Shown: in pieces, positions 31-21,117 of the stretch
Layout of the letters: each line of letters opens with the position of its first letter
Position numbering within the stretch: the first letter of the stretch is position 1
Origin: an uncultured Pseudomonadota bacterium
GTDB lineage: Bacteria; Pseudomonadota; Zetaproteobacteria; Mariprofundales; Mariprofundaceae
Length of the DNA stretch: 43,114 bases
Direction of reading: 5' to 3'
Assembly (NCBI GenBank): GCA_913055645.1
Contig: CAJXLC010000017.1
Span: 1 to 43,114 of the forward strand
Made by a program: the position numbers and the translations under genes
Notes under the pieces: generated by a model
What the model was told of the DNA's origin: nothing
The model's input: the letters and a program-made list of their open reading frames with translations, nothing else
Database searches by the model: none

Positions 31-102
31 GTAAAATCTCCTGTTTAAATGATAATAGAAAATTCTACTTATGACTCCTGTTACTTTTCGGGGGGATTAC
101 CA
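1..102 (-). mobile_element. End of an IS3-family insertion sequence (continues off the left edge)
   Basis: The minus strand from position 102 begins TGGTAATCCCCCCGAAAAG, a TG-starting, C-run terminus of the kind seen at IS3-family ends. It is followed by a short leader, an AGGAG ribosome site (plus positions 38-42) and an ATG at 30. The integrase gene to the right loses its reading frame content exactly at this boundary. Only the transposase-proximal end is in the window, so the other inverted repeat and the target duplication cannot be seen. The exact end (102, give or take a few bases) is inferred from the junction. Confidence 0.7.
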
Positions 103-1036
103 TACCTTTGTATTGTTTTTTCTTCCGCAAGTTCCTGATGGCGCCTGTGATGCTGTCTGGATGTGAATATGTTGTAAAAACCCTGCCACGTTTCTTTATA
201 CCAATCCTATTAAAAACATCCATAGCCTTTGCACCTAATGGAACAAGCCTAGTTTCATCTTCTTCTCTCTTTTTAGTGTTCTTATTCTTAACTGTCATAA
301 GGCGCTTATCAAAATCTATATCTTCCCAGCATAAACTAAGTAATTCACCACGGCGGCAAGCCGTATAAATTGCCAGTTCAACAAAATACGCAAGTGAACC
401 ATCACCATAACTCGAACACGCTTTTAAAAACTCTTTTTCTATAGATTCGCCTGTTCGTAAATCGGTAAGGATACGACGTTTCCTTTTTGTGTTTGGAATA
501 TCTGCTATCAATGACCGAACAACAATAGGATTGATATGATTCTTGAATACTGCAATTCCCTTCCCATGTGCATAATCCAACACCCTACGAATAATATTTA
601 ATTCTTCTTTGATGGTTGACCTTGAAATGTACTTGTTACCACGTCCTTTATGTTTCCTGCGTATATCAATAAACTCAGTCGCAACCATATTGGATGTAAG
701 TTCTGCAACTTTATTATTAACGAACTTATCAAATTTGTTAATGATATTATCAACCCTGTTTTGTTCTGTTTTAACATAGGTGCATTTGACTGGAATGACT
801 TTATCTCGCCAAAGTAACAAGCAATCTTTAATTGTAGCATTTTGATTATGGGTTGTTAGGTGTTCGTTATCTTTTGCCTTGTTAATTAAGTCTTGTTTAC
901 CTTGTTTGGCTTCTGCTAATGATGCATAAGTACCTGATATACTTTTACCATTATATGTAGTCCGAACACGGTATTTTTTACCACGTTTATAAATACCTTC
1001 AGGCAATCTTTTTGAAACCGTTCTTTCTCTTGCCAT
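65..1036 (-). pseudogene. int: Tyrosine-recombinase integrase of a genomic island, truncated by an IS
   Basis: A phage/island-type tyrosine integrase with an N-terminal arm-binding region, a core-binding SAM-like region in the middle, and the start of the catalytic domain. Box I is visible as TACRRGELL, whose first Arg is the catalytic Arg I. The beta-hairpin region follows, then the frame runs into the IS end after RKKKQYKG. The HxxR box, the second His/Trp and the nucleophilic Tyr are all missing, and the last dozen or so codons are IS DNA. The protein should therefore be inactive. The start at 1036 (MARERTVSK) is preferred over 1075 because it has GAGG eight bases upstream; the 1075 ATG lies inside a repeat with no ribosome site. 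It sits about 260 bp from a tRNA-fMet 3' end, the probable attachment site. Confidence 0.85.
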
Positions 1037-1182
1037 TGACCATTCCTCACTCTTTATATCACTTTCATTGACCATTTTCGGTTTTTTACACTATTTTACA
1101 GAACCCTTAGTGTAGTAACGCCTCGTAGGGAATAATGGTCAATAGAAGGTCAATGGTCAATGAAAAACCGAAAATGGTCAAT
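1035..1182. repeat. Six copies of GGTCAAT(G) around the integrase start
   Basis: The heptamer GGTCAAT occurs on the plus strand at 1137-1143, 1148-1154, 1155-1161 and 1176-1182. It occurs on the minus strand at 1035-1041 and 1067-1073. The 1035 copy overlaps the ribosome-site-to-start interval of int. Such clusters next to an integrase are typical of arm-type recombinase sites or of a repressor operator. Which protein binds is not visible. Confidence 0.6.
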
Positions 1183-5738: not shown

Positions 5739-6077
5739 TCATGATGATGTTTGCAAATTATTTTCTGCAAATTCAGACATATCGCGTACTTTATTCAAAC
5801 CTTTTTCCACATATTGCAAATTTTCCTGCACCCTCTGCATATGTTGGTTTAGCTGCCGCATAACACGTCGATGTTGCAGAGATAACTGCATTAAATCATT
5901 TTGTGTGTGCCGCTCTACCACACCCTGCCCTAAATGGCTGCGCAACGTATCAGATGCTTGATCCAACAACGCTTGGCTTTTCGGTAGCTTTTCCCATTTT
6001 TTAGACTCAATATTCTCTTGAAGCTGGGTAAGCGCATGGCGATACATTTGTATCGCCATGTTTAAATCATCTTGCAT
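5739..6077 (-). CDS. FliT-like flagellar protein (probable filament-cap chaperone)
   Basis: A 112-residue, almost wholly helical and charged protein with long heptad-like stretches (MYRHALTQLQENIESKKW ... LQHRRVMRQLNQHMQRV). The sequence itself carries no catalytic motif. Position is the main evidence: it begins inside the last codons of fliS (11-bp overlap), exactly where fliT lies in many flagellar clusters. Size and helical character match FliT chaperones, which bind FliD and sometimes the master regulator. An unnamed flagellar helical protein is the alternative. It ends the filament gene run before a REP-like repeat. Confidence 0.55.
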   Translation of the reverse strand: MQDDLNMAIQMYRHALTQLQENIESKKWEKLPKSQALLDQASDTLRSHLGQGVVERHTQNDLMQLSLQHRRVMRQLNQHMQRVQENLQYVEKGLNKVRDMSEFAENNLQTSS

Positions 6078-6516
6078 AAGCCATAGCCATTTGTGGCACT
6101 ACCTGTGCAGCTTTGGTTGCTGCAGGCTTATGTTGTAGTTGGACTGGTGTTTGACGATCTGGCGACAGCCCTTCCCACCCTTCACGCAGCGTTAATACCA
6201 ACTGCATCACTTCTACCACAGCATCGGTGGAACATGAACACATACCTTCATTTAAACGACGCATCATATAAGCGTAAAGACTGGCTAAGTCATAGGCAAC
6301 ATCGCCTCCAAGTTCAATATTTAAACTGCTCGAAAGCTCAATCAAGGCTTCAACAGCACGCCCCGTATGATCGGCTTCAGCTGCTAAATCTCCGCCCTCA
6401 ATTGCATGTTGTGCACGTCCAAGTGCTTTATACAGTGCATCATAACTTAATATAACAAGCCCCAATGGACTTGCTGTGTTTACATGATTTCCTTGATATG
6501 CCTTATAACCACCCAT
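6067..6516 (-). CDS. fliS: Flagellin export chaperone FliS
   Basis: A 149-residue FliS. The N-terminus GGYKAYQGNHVNTASPLGLVILSYDALYKALGRA is the recognisable FliS opening (YxxxxVxTASPxxLVxMLYDG pattern). It is followed by the four-helix bundle with RAxxALxEL and YMMRRLNEG. FliS binds the C-terminus of flagellin in the cytoplasm to stop premature polymerisation and hand it to the export gate. The C-terminal 30 residues (Q/P/A rich, to YAR) extend beyond the usual 125-135 residue fold. GGAGG lies 6 bp upstream of the ATG. It follows fliD after a 245-bp gap in which I see no other gene. Confidence 0.92.
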   Translation of the reverse strand: MGGYKAYQGNHVNTASPLGLVILSYDALYKALGRAQHAIEGGDLAAEADHTGRAVEALIELSSSLNIELGGDVAYDLASLYAYMMRRLNEGMCSCSTDAVVEVMQLVLTLREGWEGLSPDRQTPVQLQHKPAATKAAQVVPQMAMAYAR

Positions 6517-6761: not shown

Positions 6762-9101
6762 CTACTGCTTGGAGAGCCCAGCATTCACTTGAGCAGTAAG
6801 GAAATTACCCGTACTTTGCAAAGATGCCATGGTTGTTTGCATCAAGGTGAATGATTTGGTCAACGAAACCCTTTGTTGCTCCATCTGAAGATTTAGATCT
6901 TCAATCGTTTTGGTTAAATCATCAAAAGTTGATTGTGAAGATGCAATACTTCCTTGAATCAGACCCGTAAATGGGTTGGAAAACAAATCAAGGACACCTT
7001 CCATCTTGGCACCCAAACCAACACCCAAAGTAATATCTCCAATTGCCCCAGTTGTCGTCCCTGTATAAAAAACACCCAAGCCATCGACATTACCAGAGTT
7101 ACCAATTAACAACTGCCCCGACCCAGTCGCAGGAGAGCCATTAATCGTGCCCGCAATACTGCTACCATTATAAGAACCATCAGTAATACCAAGGCCATCC
7201 ACACTCTGTACAACACTGAAATCTGAACTTGTGCCAAAATTCTTAGACTCAATCGTAACGCCAGTACCCGTTGCTAATGCTGTTAAGCTCATCGCATAGC
7301 GCCCTTCTGTTACCACTGTATCAGTGCCCAAGTTAAGCGTTCCACCACCTTCATTATTGGCAGTTAAGTTGATTGTTAAAAGGCTATCGCCACTTTGAGC
7401 ATCGGTCACTTGAATATGCCCACTCGCATCCAAGCTCGCTACCACCTGTTGGTCAAAAGCTGTTTGAATCGATGACAATAGCGTGCCTACCGTATCTGTC
7501 GCAGGATCAAGTACTGCAAACGATGAACTTACAGCCGCTCCCAACCTATTGGTTCCAGATATGCTAATGGTATCACCCGCTGCGACTGCAAAACCTAAAC
7601 TTGATAGGGTTGAAGATGTTGTTACACCTGTAGCTCCTAAACTCCCCGATAATTGATGCTGTTCAGTAGCCACCTTATCAAATTCTGTATTCAAAGCAGA
7701 TACAATGGATGCTTGACTTTGCCCAAGTTTTAAATTCGCAATCGCCTGACGTCCACTCGCAATATCAGTGAATGTGATGGATTCATTGGCCGCTAAACCA
7801 GCAGTTAAATCCGTAGTTCCCAACACAGAAGCCTTGCTTGCTGCTTGCGTCACATTTACTTGATACGTTCCCGAAGGCGTATTCAAACCCGGAGTCATAA
7901 ACTGCAATTGACTATTGGATGAACTGCCATTGGCAACAAACACGTCTCGAATGGCAGTCGGATCAGTCGTTAAAAAAGTATCAAAACGGGTATTATTAAT
8001 TGTCAGCTGACCTTTCTCATCAGGCTCAACACCAATCATCACCATACTGTTTCTATCACTTGCCAACCCAGGCACACTTTGAAGAAGACTATTAGATAGT
8101 GTGCTTTGAATCGACTTAAGAATTCCCTCACTAGCTAATACACCAGTTGTATTAGTATTTGAATCAAAAACAAACTGATCATTCACCAACGATTGCACTT
8201 TGTTATAAGCATCCACAAAGGACTGCACATTGGCTGTTAATGCTGTGGTATCAACGGAAATATTCATATTTACAGTCACCGTTGGGTCTGCTTGTTTTAA
8301 GTTAAGCGTCACACCAGCTAGAGCATCTGAAATACTATTGCTACTGCGGGTTAAGGATAGTCCATCAATACTTACCTGTGCATCCTGAGGTGCTTGCAAA
8401 GATTGCCGTGCATTGGTCTGTCCTACGGCACCCAATTGCAAGTTCGCAAGTGTACCTCCACTATCTAGCGCAGCACCCGATAAAGAAAAACCAGTTGCTC
8501 CCGTAGCATCTGAAGCCAATACAAGTCGATAATCATTGTTTGCAACTTTTAATACTGATGCTGAAACCCCTGTCGCTGACGCTCCAGTATTTTGCTGATT
8601 AATGCTGGCGGCAATATCTTGTAGTGTATCGCCTGCTGCAACATTCACCGTAGATGTGCCAATCTGGAAACTACCAGTTAAACCTAACGAGCTGGTATCA
8701 CTGGTAATGGCTGTGCCTGCACTATCTTTCACACCCACCGATGAAGATAAGCGCTCTGCCTGCGCCACTTGTTGCACGATAATGCTATGCTTTCCAGCTG
8801 AAACACTATCCGTACCTGTTACATCTAATAAACTAGAAGCAGAAACAGTGGAAGAACTACTACCTAAACTTGCTGAATAAGAAAAAAACTTCGCACTGTC
8901 AGCCATCGCCACTGCTGTGGATTTAAACGATAACATCGCATCATTAATCGCTGTAAAAGCATCCTGTTTAGCTGTTTGAGCATCTTGCTTTTTCTGGGCT
9001 TGAGAAATTCCCAGCTTATCAAATGCTAACAAGCCATCCACTGCTTTGGTAACATCAAAACCAGCAACGCCTGTAACAGAACTGGATATAACATTAGCCA
9101 T
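6762..9101 (-). CDS. fliD: Flagellar filament cap protein FliD (HAP2), unusually long
   Basis: A 779-residue FliD, the pentameric cap that folds flagellin at the filament tip. The HAP2 N-terminal domain covers about residues 8-115 (GVAGFDVTKAVDGLLAFDK ...), followed by a flagellin-hook IN-like motif near 155-200. The C-terminal HAP2 domain is split: 240-390 (VDAYNKVQSLVND ... TTDPTAIRDVFV) and 674-779, with the coiled-coil end TIEDLNLQMEQQRVSLTKSFTLMQTTM. Residues of about 391-672 form an extra Ser/Thr/Gly-rich beta region absent from the 468-residue E. coli protein, and it contains a second IN-like stretch (DTVGTLLSSIQTAFDQQV). Such insertions are expected to be surface exposed. It starts 6 bp after flaG, so the two are co-transcribed. 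Confidence 0.95.
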   Translation of the reverse strand: MANVISSSVTGVAGFDVTKAVDGLLAFDKLGISQAQKKQDAQTAKQDAFTAINDAMLSFKSTAVAMADSAKFFSYSASLGSSSSTVSASSLLDVTGTDSVSAGKHSIIVQQVAQAERLSSSVGVKDSAGTAITSDTSSLGLTGSFQIGTSTVNVAAGDTLQDIAASINQQNTGASATGVSASVLKVANNDYRLVLASDATGATGFSLSGAALDSGGTLANLQLGAVGQTNARQSLQAPQDAQVSIDGLSLTRSSNSISDALAGVTLNLKQADPTVTVNMNISVDTTALTANVQSFVDAYNKVQSLVNDQFVFDSNTNTTGVLASEGILKSIQSTLSNSLLQSVPGLASDRNSMVMIGVEPDEKGQLTINNTRFDTFLTTDPTAIRDVFVANGSSSNSQLQFMTPGLNTPSGTYQVNVTQAASKASVLGTTDLTAGLAANESITFTDIASGRQAIANLKLGQSQASIVSALNTEFDKVATEQHQLSGSLGATGVTTSSTLSSLGFAVAAGDTISISGTNRLGAAVSSSFAVLDPATDTVGTLLSSIQTAFDQQVVASLDASGHIQVTDAQSGDSLLTINLTANNEGGGTLNLGTDTVVTEGRYAMSLTALATGTGVTIESKNFGTSSDFSVVQSVDGLGITDGSYNGSSIAGTINGSPATGSGQLLIGNSGNVDGLGVFYTGTTTGAIGDITLGVGLGAKMEGVLDLFSNPFTGLIQGSIASSQSTFDDLTKTIEDLNLQMEQQRVSLTKSFTLMQTTMASLQSTGNFLTAQVNAGLSKQ

Positions 9102-9107
9102 AATAAA

Positions 9108-9488
9108 TTACGCTTTTTTATCCAAAATAAGACCAATCATTTCACGCAGCGCAATTTGATGACGAATAAAATCCTTGGATGGTATTTCGCGTACAACAGC
9201 ACCACTATTTTGATCAATGATCTTTACATACAATAGATTCAACTTGGATTCATAAGCAAAACTAATCGTCTCATTCGAGCCTGCCGATGCCAGCATCTGA
9301 TTTGCCTTATTCACTGCTGCTTGCACGCTTTTTTCAGTCACTGCGGGTTCTCTTTGAATATTCTGCACATTGGATGACTGAGGTGCAACACGCTGCTGAA
9401 CTGGTGCGGTTGATACAGCCGCAGTAGCGTTCACCATTGGCGTTGAAGCCACAGGTGCTTGTGTAGTAATTGGGGTAATAACAGCCAT
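9108..9488 (-). CDS. flaG: FlaG-family flagellar protein
   Basis: A 126-residue protein with a low-complexity Ala/Val/Pro/Thr N-terminal half and a conserved C-terminal FlaG domain (about 65-126: NETISFAYESKLNLLYVKIIDQNSGAVVREIPSKDFIRHQIALREMIGLILD). FlaG proteins influence filament length in polar flagella; the biochemical role is not settled. It lies between fliC and fliD, the normal FlaG place in Vibrio, Pseudomonas and Aeromonas clusters. A strong AAAGGAGG ribosome site precedes the ATG. Confidence 0.9.
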   Translation of the reverse strand: MAVITPITTQAPVASTPMVNATAAVSTAPVQQRVAPQSSNVQNIQREPAVTEKSVQAAVNKANQMLASAGSNETISFAYESKLNLLYVKIIDQNSGAVVREIPSKDFIRHQIALREMIGLILDKKA

Positions 9489-9601: not shown

Positions 9602-10801
9602 TTATCTAAACAAAGATAATACGTTTCGTGAAGCTTGATTGGCTTGAGCAAGCATAGAAGTACTGGCTTGAGTCAAGATTTTATTCTTGGTAAAGTCAGC
9701 CATTTCGGTCGCCATATTCGCATCACGAATAGATGATACAGATGCAGTGGTTTGCTCAATACTTGTTGCCAAGTTAGCTTGAACAAAAGCCACTTGATTC
9801 TGCGTCGCACCCAAATCGGCACGTTGTTTAACCAATGTGTCCATCGCGTTCTTAGCAGTATCGATATAAGTCTGAGCACCTGCCTGAGTCGTTAAAGCGC
9901 CAGCAGTACCCGATAGACCTAAACCCGCAGTGGTATATTTATTCGTTAAATTTATGGTTACCTGATTATTGGTATTGTTATCCGCACCAACTTGGAATGA
10001 CAATGCCGCTGCATACGCGGAAGTAGTAGAAGGTGTACCAGCAGTGATAGTATTCGTATCAGCTACTCCACCTGCAGCACCACGTGTACCTAGAGTTAAG
10101 GTCATTGTCATTGTGTCACCAGCAGCATTGCTCAACGTAACAGTGTTCGCACCATTATAATTCACAGAACCAGCAGCGATACTACCTGTAAACCCAGCAG
10201 TACCAGTCACAGCAAGAGTATCAGCTGCAGCATTAGCGCCTTGGGTAATTGTAGAAACCACAGTTCCCGAAGCAACACCTGAAGTAATGGGAGTGCCAGC
10301 AAGTGTTGATGATGATGTACCTGCGGCCGTACCAGAAGCAGATGATAACGTTGATGCCACTGCGGTTGTAGTTGTAGATGAATCAAGACCATTCAATAGA
10401 TTTACACCATTAAAGTTGGTAGAATTCGCAATTTTATTAATCGCTGATTCCAATTTAACACGTTCTGCATCCAGCTTACCAAGTTCGCCTGCATTGTTCG
10501 CAGAAGCAGCCTGAACCGCTAGTGTCTGAATACGTGCTGTCATATTTTGAATTTCATTTACACCCGCATCCGCCATTTTTACCATGGCTTGTGCTTGTGA
10601 TGCATTCAAAGATGCGGCTTTCAAACGTGAAGATTGTGCATCCAATTTTGAAGAAACCGCAAAACCAGCGGCATCATCGGCTGCATTGTTAATCCGGAAG
10701 CCAGAAGATAGACGTTCCAGAGATTTGTTCATGTTCACACTATTTGTATTAATATTTTTAAGGGCCGTATTTGCACCCATATTGGTTTGTACTGATAGCA
10801 T
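9602..10801 (-). CDS. fliC: Flagellin FliC
   Basis: A 399-residue flagellin, the filament subunit. The conserved N-terminal D0/D1 region covers about 1-140 (TNMGANTALKNINTNSVNM, LERLSSGFRINNAADDAAG, then the coiled D1 helices). The central 145-310 region is a variable Ser/Thr/Ala/Gly-rich beta segment. The C-terminal D1/D0 is about 312-399 (SSIRDANMATEMADF, ILTQASTSMLAQANQASRNVLSLFR). Both conserved ends are intact, so it should polymerise. The Ser/Thr-rich middle is a plausible target for surface modification (inference). GGAGAG lies 5 bp before the ATG. It is driven by a sigma-28 promoter and closed by its own terminator; only one flagellin gene is present in the window. Confidence 0.97.
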   Translation of the reverse strand: MLSVQTNMGANTALKNINTNSVNMNKSLERLSSGFRINNAADDAAGFAVSSKLDAQSSRLKAASLNASQAQAMVKMADAGVNEIQNMTARIQTLAVQAASANNAGELGKLDAERVKLESAINKIANSTNFNGVNLLNGLDSSTTTTAVASTLSSASGTAAGTSSSTLAGTPITSGVASGTVVSTITQGANAAADTLAVTGTAGFTGSIAAGSVNYNGANTVTLSNAAGDTMTMTLTLGTRGAAGGVADTNTITAGTPSTTSAYAAALSFQVGADNNTNNQVTINLTNKYTTAGLGLSGTAGALTTQAGAQTYIDTAKNAMDTLVKQRADLGATQNQVAFVQANLATSIEQTTASVSSIRDANMATEMADFTKNKILTQASTSMLAQANQASRNVLSLFR

Positions 10802-10902: not shown

Positions 10903-10929
10903 GTATCGACGAGTGTTATCTGGACTTTA
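10903..10929 (-). promoter_or_regulatory. Sigma-28 (FliA) promoter of fliC
   Basis: On the minus strand TAAA (plus 10926-10929), 15 bp, then GTCGATAC (plus 10903-10910) match the sigma-28 consensus TAAA-N15-GCCGATAA at all four -35 bases and six of eight -10 bases. It is about 100 bp upstream of the fliC start and downstream of recG. Confidence 0.75.
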
Positions 10930-16616: not shown

Positions 16617-16868
16617 TTATTCGATTTCTTCCTCAGCAGCACCCTGCAAACGAAGCTTTTCCTGCTCATCCATATCAAATAATAATTCCCATGACACATG
16701 ACCTTCACCCATTTCACGTAATGCCTGAACTGCTGGTTTGTGCCCCTCATCATCCAAAAGCAATGGCAAACCATTTAATACCTGACGAGCACGCTTGGAT
16801 GCCAACACAATCATTTCAAAACGATTAGGGTAATAACGAACACAATCTTCTACAGTTACACGAGCCAT
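16617..16868 (-). CDS. rpoZ: RNA polymerase omega subunit
   Basis: An 83-residue omega subunit, which helps beta-prime assembly and ppGpp response. The conserved N-terminus MARVTVEDCVRYYPNRFEMIVLASKRARQV is diagnostic. The C-terminal part is acidic and variable (EEEIE). It precedes spoT as in most proteobacteria, but gmk, which normally lies directly upstream in the same operon, is nearly 2 kb away behind an opposing gene. Its own promoter-like boxes at 16898-16925 fit that separation. Confidence 0.95.
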   Translation of the reverse strand: MARVTVEDCVRYYPNRFEMIVLASKRARQVLNGLPLLLDDEGHKPAVQALREMGEGHVSWELLFDMDEQEKLRLQGAAEEEIE

Positions 16869-16897: not shown

Positions 16898-16925
16898 ATA
16901 ATATTGCGCGAGCATAGCAAGACAA
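16898..16925 (-). promoter_or_regulatory. Sigma-70-like promoter for rpoZ-spoT-ridA
   Basis: On the minus strand TTGTCT (plus 16920-16925), 16 bp and TATTAT (plus 16898-16903) lie 30 bp before the rpoZ start. Confidence 0.5.
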
Positions 16926-17017
16926 ATATAAATGTCACGATACAAACAACATTGGTATTCACTATCACCATAATAATAACCCTGACTATTTGGATTGACT
17001 TTGATGATCATTCTTTT

Positions 17018-17031
17018 GGCATCAGATTTGC
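17018..17031 (+). promoter_or_regulatory. Sigma-54 (RpoN) promoter of the TPR-sulfotransferase gene
   Basis: TTGGCATCAGATTTGCA matches the sigma-54 consensus TGGCAC-N5-TTGCA with the invariant GG (17018-17019) and GC (17030-17031) exactly 10 bp apart. Transcription would begin near 17043, leaving a leader of about 29 nt with AAAGGTG before the ATG at 17072. An enhancer-binding activator is therefore expected; its site was not identified. Confidence 0.75.
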
Positions 17032-17071
17032 AACCCTGCTTCCAATGTAATGTTTTAATAAAGGTGTATTC

Positions 17072-18769
17072 ATGAAAAAAATTAGTCTCTCAAACAATAA
17101 AAAACGAAAAGTAAAAAACTTGATGGGCTCAGCAAACAATTTATTTAACGAACAAAAGGTTAATGAGGCAGGAGAGCTTTGCCAAAAAGCCCTAAAAATA
17201 GACCCTAACCATGCCGATTCTTTTAATTTATTAGGTCTAATATCTTCTCACTTAAAAAAGTATGATTCAGCCGAAATATTCCATAAAAAGGCATGTGAAC
17301 TTATGCCCAACAATCCTTTATACTGGAATAACCTCGGCGCACTATGTTTAACACTAAAACGTTACACTGAAGCTCAGAACTATTTAAATAAAAGTTTAGA
17401 AGTAGAGCCAGGTTATTTTCATGCCTTATCAAATATGAGCGCACTTCTCTTAGAGTTAAAACAGCCCGAGAAGGCCTATGAAATACTCCAACATGTCTTG
17501 GCCGCACAGCCCAAATCCTCTTTCATTCAATGCCTTATGGGAGAAGCTCTAGGGCAACTAAACTTACCCCATAAAGCAACCCAATATTTTTTAAAAGCGT
17601 TACAGCTTAACCCAAATGAGAAAAATGCAAATATCAAGCTAGGCCAAATATATCTCAATAATGGTGAGCTAAGTAAAGCAGAGGAATATTTACGCAAAGA
17701 GCTGTATTACTACCCTGAAACAGGCGCCTGTTACCAAGCTCTAGTCATGAGTAAGTTACATAATGACCAAGACATCAGTAAGCTACAAAGGTTATATAAA
17801 CAGTCTAATCTCCCTTTAGATGACAGAATCAGTGTTATATTTTCCCTAGCAAGAATAAAAGAGTATGAAAAAGACTACGAACAATCCTTCACTTACCTTA
17901 ACCAAGCTAATAAACTTAGGAGAGACTCTCTTCAGTGCGACCTAAATCAACATGCCGCGTATTTTGAGCGGTTAAAAGAAAGTTTTTCCATTTCTTTTAT
18001 TCAAAACAAGTCCCGCATAAGTCACTCAAGTGCCACACCTATTTTCATTCTCGGCTTGCCACGCTCTGGAACCTCTCTGGTCGAACAAATATTGGTCTCT
18101 CACCCTAGTGTCGCAGGCTGCGGGGAGCTAGATAATTTAGGAGCTATTACACAGCAGATTTGCAACATTGCCAACACTCAAACCGATAATAAAAACACTT
18201 GGAATTTTGATAGCATACAATGGGAAGAAGCTGGCCAAGCCTACCTAGATGTTTTATATAAATTAGCAGAGAGCAAAGCACCATTTATTACAGATAAAAC
18301 GCCATTAAACTTCCAGTATATCGGCTTTATTCATAGCATATTTCCAAACGCAAAAATTATTCACTGCCATCGTAATCGCATGGACAATTGCCTATCTATC
18401 TATAAAGAGGGTTTTACTGGAACAGCATATAATTATGCATACAACCTTGAAGAGCTTGGTGCTTATTACCTCTTATATGAAGATTTGATGGCACATTGGC
18501 GTAGCGTTTTACCAGATGGTACAATGTACGAGCTCGAGTATGAAACACTTGTTAATCATCAAGAAAGTGAAACAAGGGCATTACTTCAGCACTGTAATAT
18601 TGAGTGGGATAATGCATGCCTTTCTTTCCATCAAACAAAACGACATGTCAACACCGCCAGCACAGCTCAAGTAAGGCAACCTATATATAAAACATCCATT
18701 GAAGGTTGGCGCCGTTATGAAAAACAACTGCAACCACTAGCGAAAATATTACTCGGTAATAATGAATAA
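17072..18769 (+). CDS. TPR-repeat sulfotransferase
   Basis: A 565-residue protein with a tetratricopeptide-repeat N-terminal half and a sulfotransferase C-terminal half. TPR-like units run from about residue 15 to 215 (for example AGELCQKALKIDPNHADSFNLLG and AQNYLNKSLEVEPGYFHALSNM). The catalytic domain begins with the PAPS 5'-phosphosulfate loop TPIFILGLPRSGTSLVEQIL (about 322-341), followed by the 3'-phosphate region (CHRNRMDNCLSIYKEGF). It should transfer sulfate from PAPS to a protein or glycan held by the TPR domain; the substrate is unknown. There is no signal peptide. It has a sigma-54 promoter, faces the opposite way to gmk and rpoZ, and separates those normally adjacent genes. Its codon and base use look more AT-rich than its neighbours, suggesting acquisition (by eye only). 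Confidence 0.9.
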   Translation: MKKISLSNNKKRKVKNLMGSANNLFNEQKVNEAGELCQKALKIDPNHADSFNLLGLISSHLKKYDSAEIFHKKACELMPNNPLYWNNLGALCLTLKRYTEAQNYLNKSLEVEPGYFHALSNMSALLLELKQPEKAYEILQHVLAAQPKSSFIQCLMGEALGQLNLPHKATQYFLKALQLNPNEKNANIKLGQIYLNNGELSKAEEYLRKELYYYPETGACYQALVMSKLHNDQDISKLQRLYKQSNLPLDDRISVIFSLARIKEYEKDYEQSFTYLNQANKLRRDSLQCDLNQHAAYFERLKESFSISFIQNKSRISHSSATPIFILGLPRSGTSLVEQILVSHPSVAGCGELDNLGAITQQICNIANTQTDNKNTWNFDSIQWEEAGQAYLDVLYKLAESKAPFITDKTPLNFQYIGFIHSIFPNAKIIHCHRNRMDNCLSIYKEGFTGTAYNYAYNLEELGAYYLLYEDLMAHWRSVLPDGTMYELEYETLVNHQESETRALLQHCNIEWDNACLSFHQTKRHVNTASTAQVRQPIYKTSIEGWRRYEKQLQPLAKILLGNNE

Positions 18770-18794
18770 TTTATACTACGCAGTTGCAAGCACA

Positions 18795-21117
<2,323 letters not shown>

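Follow-up and report, generated by a model that had tools for sequence, protein, structure and literature searches.

Modification of bacterial flagellin is mainly known as glycosylation. One enzyme of this kind, a precedent for the design discussed below, is FlmG of Caulobacter crescentus, a cytoplasmic flagellin O-glycosyltransferase of about 600 residues which consists of a TPR half (residues 1-313) and a C-terminal transferase half. The TPR domain alone binds flagellins, flagellin glycosylation needs both halves, and in Caulobacter the glycosylation components appear ahead of the secretion chaperone (PMC7591256). Sulfate transfer to a bacterial protein is represented by RaxST from Xanthomonas, a tyrosine sulfotransferase modelled on TPST2, whose substrate is the RaxX peptide (PMC6637879). 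For the archaeon Halobacterium, glycoproteins and archaella with sulfated N-glycans are described (PMC11980604, PMC11239922). Open-access literature, which lacks most subscription journals, gave no description of a sulfotransferase acting on bacterial flagellin or of a bacterial flagellin carrying sulfate, and no paper on the function of TPR-sulfotransferases was found.

The window, a stretch of 43,114 nucleotides from an uncultured member of the Mariprofundaceae (genome G000), carries a TPR-sulfotransferase gene between gmk and rpoZ (Table 1). Studying the encoded protein supports the statement of the first-pass annotation that it is a PAPS-type sulfotransferase with TPRs. The Pfam profile Sulfotransfer_3 (PF13469) matches residues 323-513 with an E-value of 2.6e-44 and 152.5 bits compared to a cut-off of 27, and this full-length domain match, exceeding the curated cut-off, assigns the ORF to the family. 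An AlphaFold2 model based on 58 homologues reached a mean pLDDT of 95 and a pTM of 0.91. A Foldseek search with its N-terminal half finds designed TPRs as well as the TPR domains of SPINDLY and of O-GlcNAc transferase. With its catalytic half the search finds TPST1/TPST2 and a tick TPST (TMt 0.60-0.74); TPSTs are also the sole solved relatives found by sequence for this half. The residues essential for PAPS-sulfotransferases were taken from PMC6637879, and the PAPS-binding Arg and Ser motifs with the catalytic base between them are present. All 58 homologues have R331, G333, H344, E352, K409 and R434, and nearly all have S442; in an alignment with TPST1 these residues fall on its PAPS-binding and CGE-motif positions. 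The loss of PAPS-binding residues, which the first-pass annotation had considered, is thus not seen, and no sign suggests that the enzyme is dead. A hydrophobic N-terminal segment was not seen in the protein sequence. Searching the genome contig collection with the protein gave nothing useful.

Table 1. Features of the window discussed in the text, in order of position.
Feature	Position	Strand	Remarks
fliT	5739-6077	-	fliC cluster
fliS	6067-6516	-	fliC cluster
fliD	6762-9101	-	fliC cluster
flaG	9108-9488	-	comes after fliC
fliC flagellin, proposed target	9602-10801	-	6.3 kb from the sulfotransferase gene, not adjacent
sigma-28-like site TAAAGTCC-N11-GTCGATAC	10903-10929	-	before fliC; seen by eye
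rpoZ	16617-16868	-	flanks the ORF
rpoZ promoter-like site GTGACA-N16-TATGCT	16911-16938	-	kept from the ancestral intergenic region
extra segment compared with same-genus genomes, about 1.86 kb	16939-18794 (approximate)		gene-order comparison and retained intergenic sequence
-24/-12 (sigma-54) promoter-like site TGGCATCAGATTTGCA	17017-17032	+	starts 55 bp before the ATG; GG at 17018, 54 bp before
TPR-sulfotransferase ORF	17072-18769	+	565 aa; convergent with gmk, divergent from rpoZ
TPR/helical solenoid, residues 8-316	17093-18019	+	probable target-binding half; domain search, model, identity comparison
sulfotransferase domain, residues 323-561	18038-18754	+	fold nearest TPST1/TPST2
5'-phosphosulfate-binding loop LGLPRSGTS, residues 327-335	18050-18076	+	R331, G333 invariant
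3'-phosphate-binding motif	18371-18397	+	R434 invariant, S442 nearly invariant
gmk	18795-19349	-	flanks the ORF

Comparing this protein with the described systems reveals likenesses as well as differences. As in FlmG, an N-terminal TPR half is followed by a C-terminal transferase half. However, the catalytic half of FlmG is a GT-B glycosyltransferase and that of the window protein a sulfotransferase. The latter may therefore be called analogous to FlmG but not a member of its family; binding of flagellin by its TPR half is suggested only indirectly, by the flagellin neighbours of the closest homologue and by TPR conservation. With TPST1 and TPST2 the enzyme shares the catalytic fold, the Arg and Ser of the PAPS site, the glutamate of the CGE motif and a Lys, but TPSTs lack a TPR half and the identity is only about 20-23%. 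In addition, the arginines after CGEE in TPSTs (CGEETRV) are missing (CGELDNL), and few acidic residues are found near Tyr in the window flagellin. Although the fold agrees, the basic residues and the acidic surroundings of Tyr do not, and we would not assign the enzyme to the TPSTs. RaxST is likewise a bacterial enzyme sulfating a secreted protein, but PMC6637879 describes no TPR solenoid for it and it has no flagellar link. The archaellin glycan sulfotransferases of Halobacterium salinarum (PMC11980604) have in common with the proposed enzyme that sulfate is placed on glycoproteins, the swimming filament among them; they differ in being archaeal and in using an N-linked tetrasaccharide acceptor, and the archaellum is not related to the bacterial flagellum. 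Other bacterial TPR-sulfotransferases (Sulfotransfer_3 with TPRs) show the same architecture as the window protein, but differ in promoter and genetic neighborhood, as described below.

The gene order around gmk was compared with that of relatives. In all seven same-genus genomes in which the stretch was read (G001, G002, G005, G006, G007, G008, G010) fdx-gmk-rpoZ-spoT is uninterrupted, and in G007 the matching order is longer, with ridA, rpmB, recG and fliC coming next. The first-pass annotation took gmk, rpoZ and spoT to be normally contiguous, which holds for these genomes but not for genus g8 (e.g. G026), where rpoZ does not come after gmk. Because the ancestral rpoZ-proximal intergenic stretch TGACATTTATATTTGTCTTGCTATGCTCG persists beside rpoZ in the window, the extra DNA can be delimited as given in Table 1, and its size is close to that of the 1.9-kb segment noted at first, which holds the oppositely oriented gene. 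An ancestral arrangement is ruled out by the seven unbroken genomes, and the comparison supports the view that the insertion is derived. An insertion by a recognisable mobile element was considered and rejected, as neither a transposase nor convincing terminal repeats nor a duplicated target could be found at the insertion. Expression of rpoZ-spoT need not be disturbed, because rpoZ keeps its own promoter-like site, which is conserved in the relatives. Near the contig edge a tyrosine-recombinase/integrase-like ORF (window positions 65-1075, minus strand) was read from the sequence.

The canonical -24/-12 site which the first-pass annotation described as a promoter at 54 bp before the start could be verified. 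By base composition a perfect pattern is expected about 0.0002 times per 200-bp upstream region. In total 11 perfect patterns occur in the 1.88-Mb genome, compared to about 3.3 expected by base composition, and the reversed control pattern has no match. The genome contains rpoN and six clear sigma-54 activators, two of which adjoin flgB. A perfect site is located upstream of flgB, and sites with at most one mismatch are located upstream of flgF, fliN and the fliK-flgD-flgE group. In G000 the middle flagellar genes therefore seem to depend on sigma-54, and fliC has a sigma-28-like site instead. Perfect sites also precede the genes for a PilZ-like (C28), an HDOD-like (C31) and a chemoreceptor-like (C8) protein (listed as L085, L086 and L078), which suggests that the sigma-54 set covers broadly motility and signalling. 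We find the predicted RpoN-type promoter of the sulfotransferase gene convincing and, judging from sites and not from expression, this gene would belong to the sigma-54 flagellar set.

The closest homologue found (55% identity, full length) is encoded in G026 (C8:60786-62447), a genome of another genus. It has a flagellin gene on either side, with flaG, fliD, fliS and fliT coming next. Its -24/-12 site TGGCATCATACTTGC has the identical 55-bp distance to the start, so that the window gene has a conserved upstream site in addition to rpoN and activators in its genome. Aligning both regions gives promoter and leader a score that none of 500 shuffles reaches, and upstream of the promoter the two sequences are unrelated. 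Gene and promoter therefore seem to behave as a single unit in two unrelated places. This is the single full-length homologue with the promoter in common: a comparable sigma-54 site is absent from about 45 other TPR-sulfotransferases examined. In the tree the two proteins are sisters (support 100/99). Their TPR halves are 51% identical, compared to 16-28% identity of the window TPR half to 56 other homologues, and the catalytic half is 38-52% identical to the same 56 proteins. Because the TPR half is conserved with G026 only and the catalytic half broadly, both enzymes are suggested to bind the same target.

One could also imagine a gene spread by horizontal shuffling and not selected for any flagellar role, whose promoter and neighbours are coincidental or which is decaying. 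The patchy distribution would fit, since the assemblies of other genus members contain no full-length close copy and G007 has only a partial homologue. However, the reading frame is intact, at a protein identity of 55% both the promoter and the key residues have been retained, and the GC3 of 0.34 is the same as in the neighbouring genes, and we consider such a history very improbable. The partial homologue in G007 (L117, C274:3-299) comprises the final 98 residues of a 60%-identical protein at a contig edge; it adjoins a VOC-family gene and tatB/tatC and lies away from gmk. The G007 assembly lacks the remainder of this gene and whatever lies upstream of it.

TPR-sulfotransferases at flagellin loci are also found in other genomes. 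In G037, which belongs to another family of the order, the gene lies directly 5' of fliC and fliD, and tatC comes just after the three genes. G048, a member of a different family within the phylum, has it immediately 5' of a flagellin gene. In G013 (L111, C26:36000-52000) and G085 (L189, C65:45000-62000) the TPR-sulfotransferase lies beside fliC in a shared flagellin island, together with a TPR-GT41, a GT41-methyltransferase and a TPR protein whose C-terminal half was read as SGNH-like. These islands look like undescribed flagellin-modification clusters. At flagellin loci of the class, modules that transfer sugar, methyl or sulfate groups are fused to TPR proteins or encoded next to them. A strong TPR-sulfotransferase match is present in 41 of 78 class genomes, and most of these proteins are not encoded near flagellin. 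Besides the window, four lie within 10 kb of a flagellin gene compared to 0.87 expected (P about 0.01), which is a rough test because one of the four comes from a looser search. A single clade of flagellin-linked sulfotransferases was rejected, as the tree needs four changes, at least two of them forced. Therefore the association seems to be repeated or old and not due to a single recent inheritance.

G000 itself harbours two more full-length TPR-sulfotransferase paralogues, on C2 (L073) and C3 (L074), neither of them next to flagellin nor preceded by a sigma-54 site. One of the two adjoins ispD/ispF.

The first-pass annotation proposed modification of a surface structure, partly because of surface-polysaccharide genes close by. 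Such genes exist at 40-43 kb of the window but are more than 20 kb off, and a link to them is not supported, whereas flagellin as the surface structure is indicated by the G026 locus and the common promoter. An enzyme which sulfates exopolysaccharide or LPS and has only its regulation in common with motility would agree with the fact that glycans are substrates of many bacterial sulfotransferases, as well as with the position of the two paralogues; the polysaccharide-type genes of the window could be counted in its favor, too. Besides their distance, however, the flagellin locus and promoter type of the G026 homologue, a catalytic half resembling protein-tyrosine and not carbohydrate sulfotransferases, and a TPR half suggestive of a protein partner make this unlikely. 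It is also improbable, in our opinion, that the enzyme modifies not flagellin but a different protein which is flagellar or secreted (hook, cap FliD, chaperone, adhesin): sigma-54 groups the gene with hook-basal-body genes and fliD is also part of the G026 and G037 loci, but flagellin is the recurrent immediate neighbour (G026, G037, G048). We favour flagellin because the nearest homologue lies in a flagellin locus, the promoter is common to both genes, and other sigma-54 sites precede flagellar genes.

In agreement with the first-pass annotation the window flagellin is Ser/Thr-rich. Its central region of 164 residues contains 34% Ser+Thr, at the upper end for the class, about 3-4 Tyr and 4 acidic residues. 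Tyr counts show no pattern when flagellins that have a linked sulfotransferase are compared to those that have none. Tyrosine sulfation of the TPST type, in acidic surroundings, is not favoured because the enzyme has no TPST arginines in its CGE neighbourhood and Tyr as well as acidic residues are few in the flagellin. A scan of 12 genomes for GT41 gave matches in G013, G085, G027, G082 and G048; in G027 and G082 the genes are located on flagellin contigs. No GT41/OGT-type transferase was found by this GT41-only scan in G000, G026 and G037. Sulfation of an OGT-made glycan was therefore rejected for G000, and sulfate could replace the O-sugar on the filament. Ser/Thr or a non-OGT glycan are possible acceptors.

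Taken together, we think it probable that this is a flagellar-regulon enzyme of FlmG-like build which sulfates flagellin, or a glycan borne by flagellin, in the cytoplasm before export. RpoN would transcribe the gene alongside the hook-basal-body genes, and we infer that the enzyme is thereby made ahead of the sigma-28-driven flagellin. In the cytoplasm the TPR solenoid would capture flagellin, to whose side chains or glycan the sulfotransferase domain would transfer sulfate from PAPS, prior to type III export and with a possible effect on motility. The more specific idea that bacterial flagellin is itself sulfated on Ser/Thr or Tyr, by a cytosolic sulfotransferase which is guided by its TPRs and whose timing in the flagellar cascade is set by sigma-54, is put forward only tentatively. 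In this lineage gene and promoter were probably copied or moved as one unit of about 1.86 kb into the gmk-rpoZ gap.

If true, TPR-guided sulfate addition would amount to a new kind of filament chemistry, and TPR modules would recruit several chemistries to flagellin. A sulfated filament, in turn, could alter the charge of the cell surface, adhesion and the interaction with minerals.
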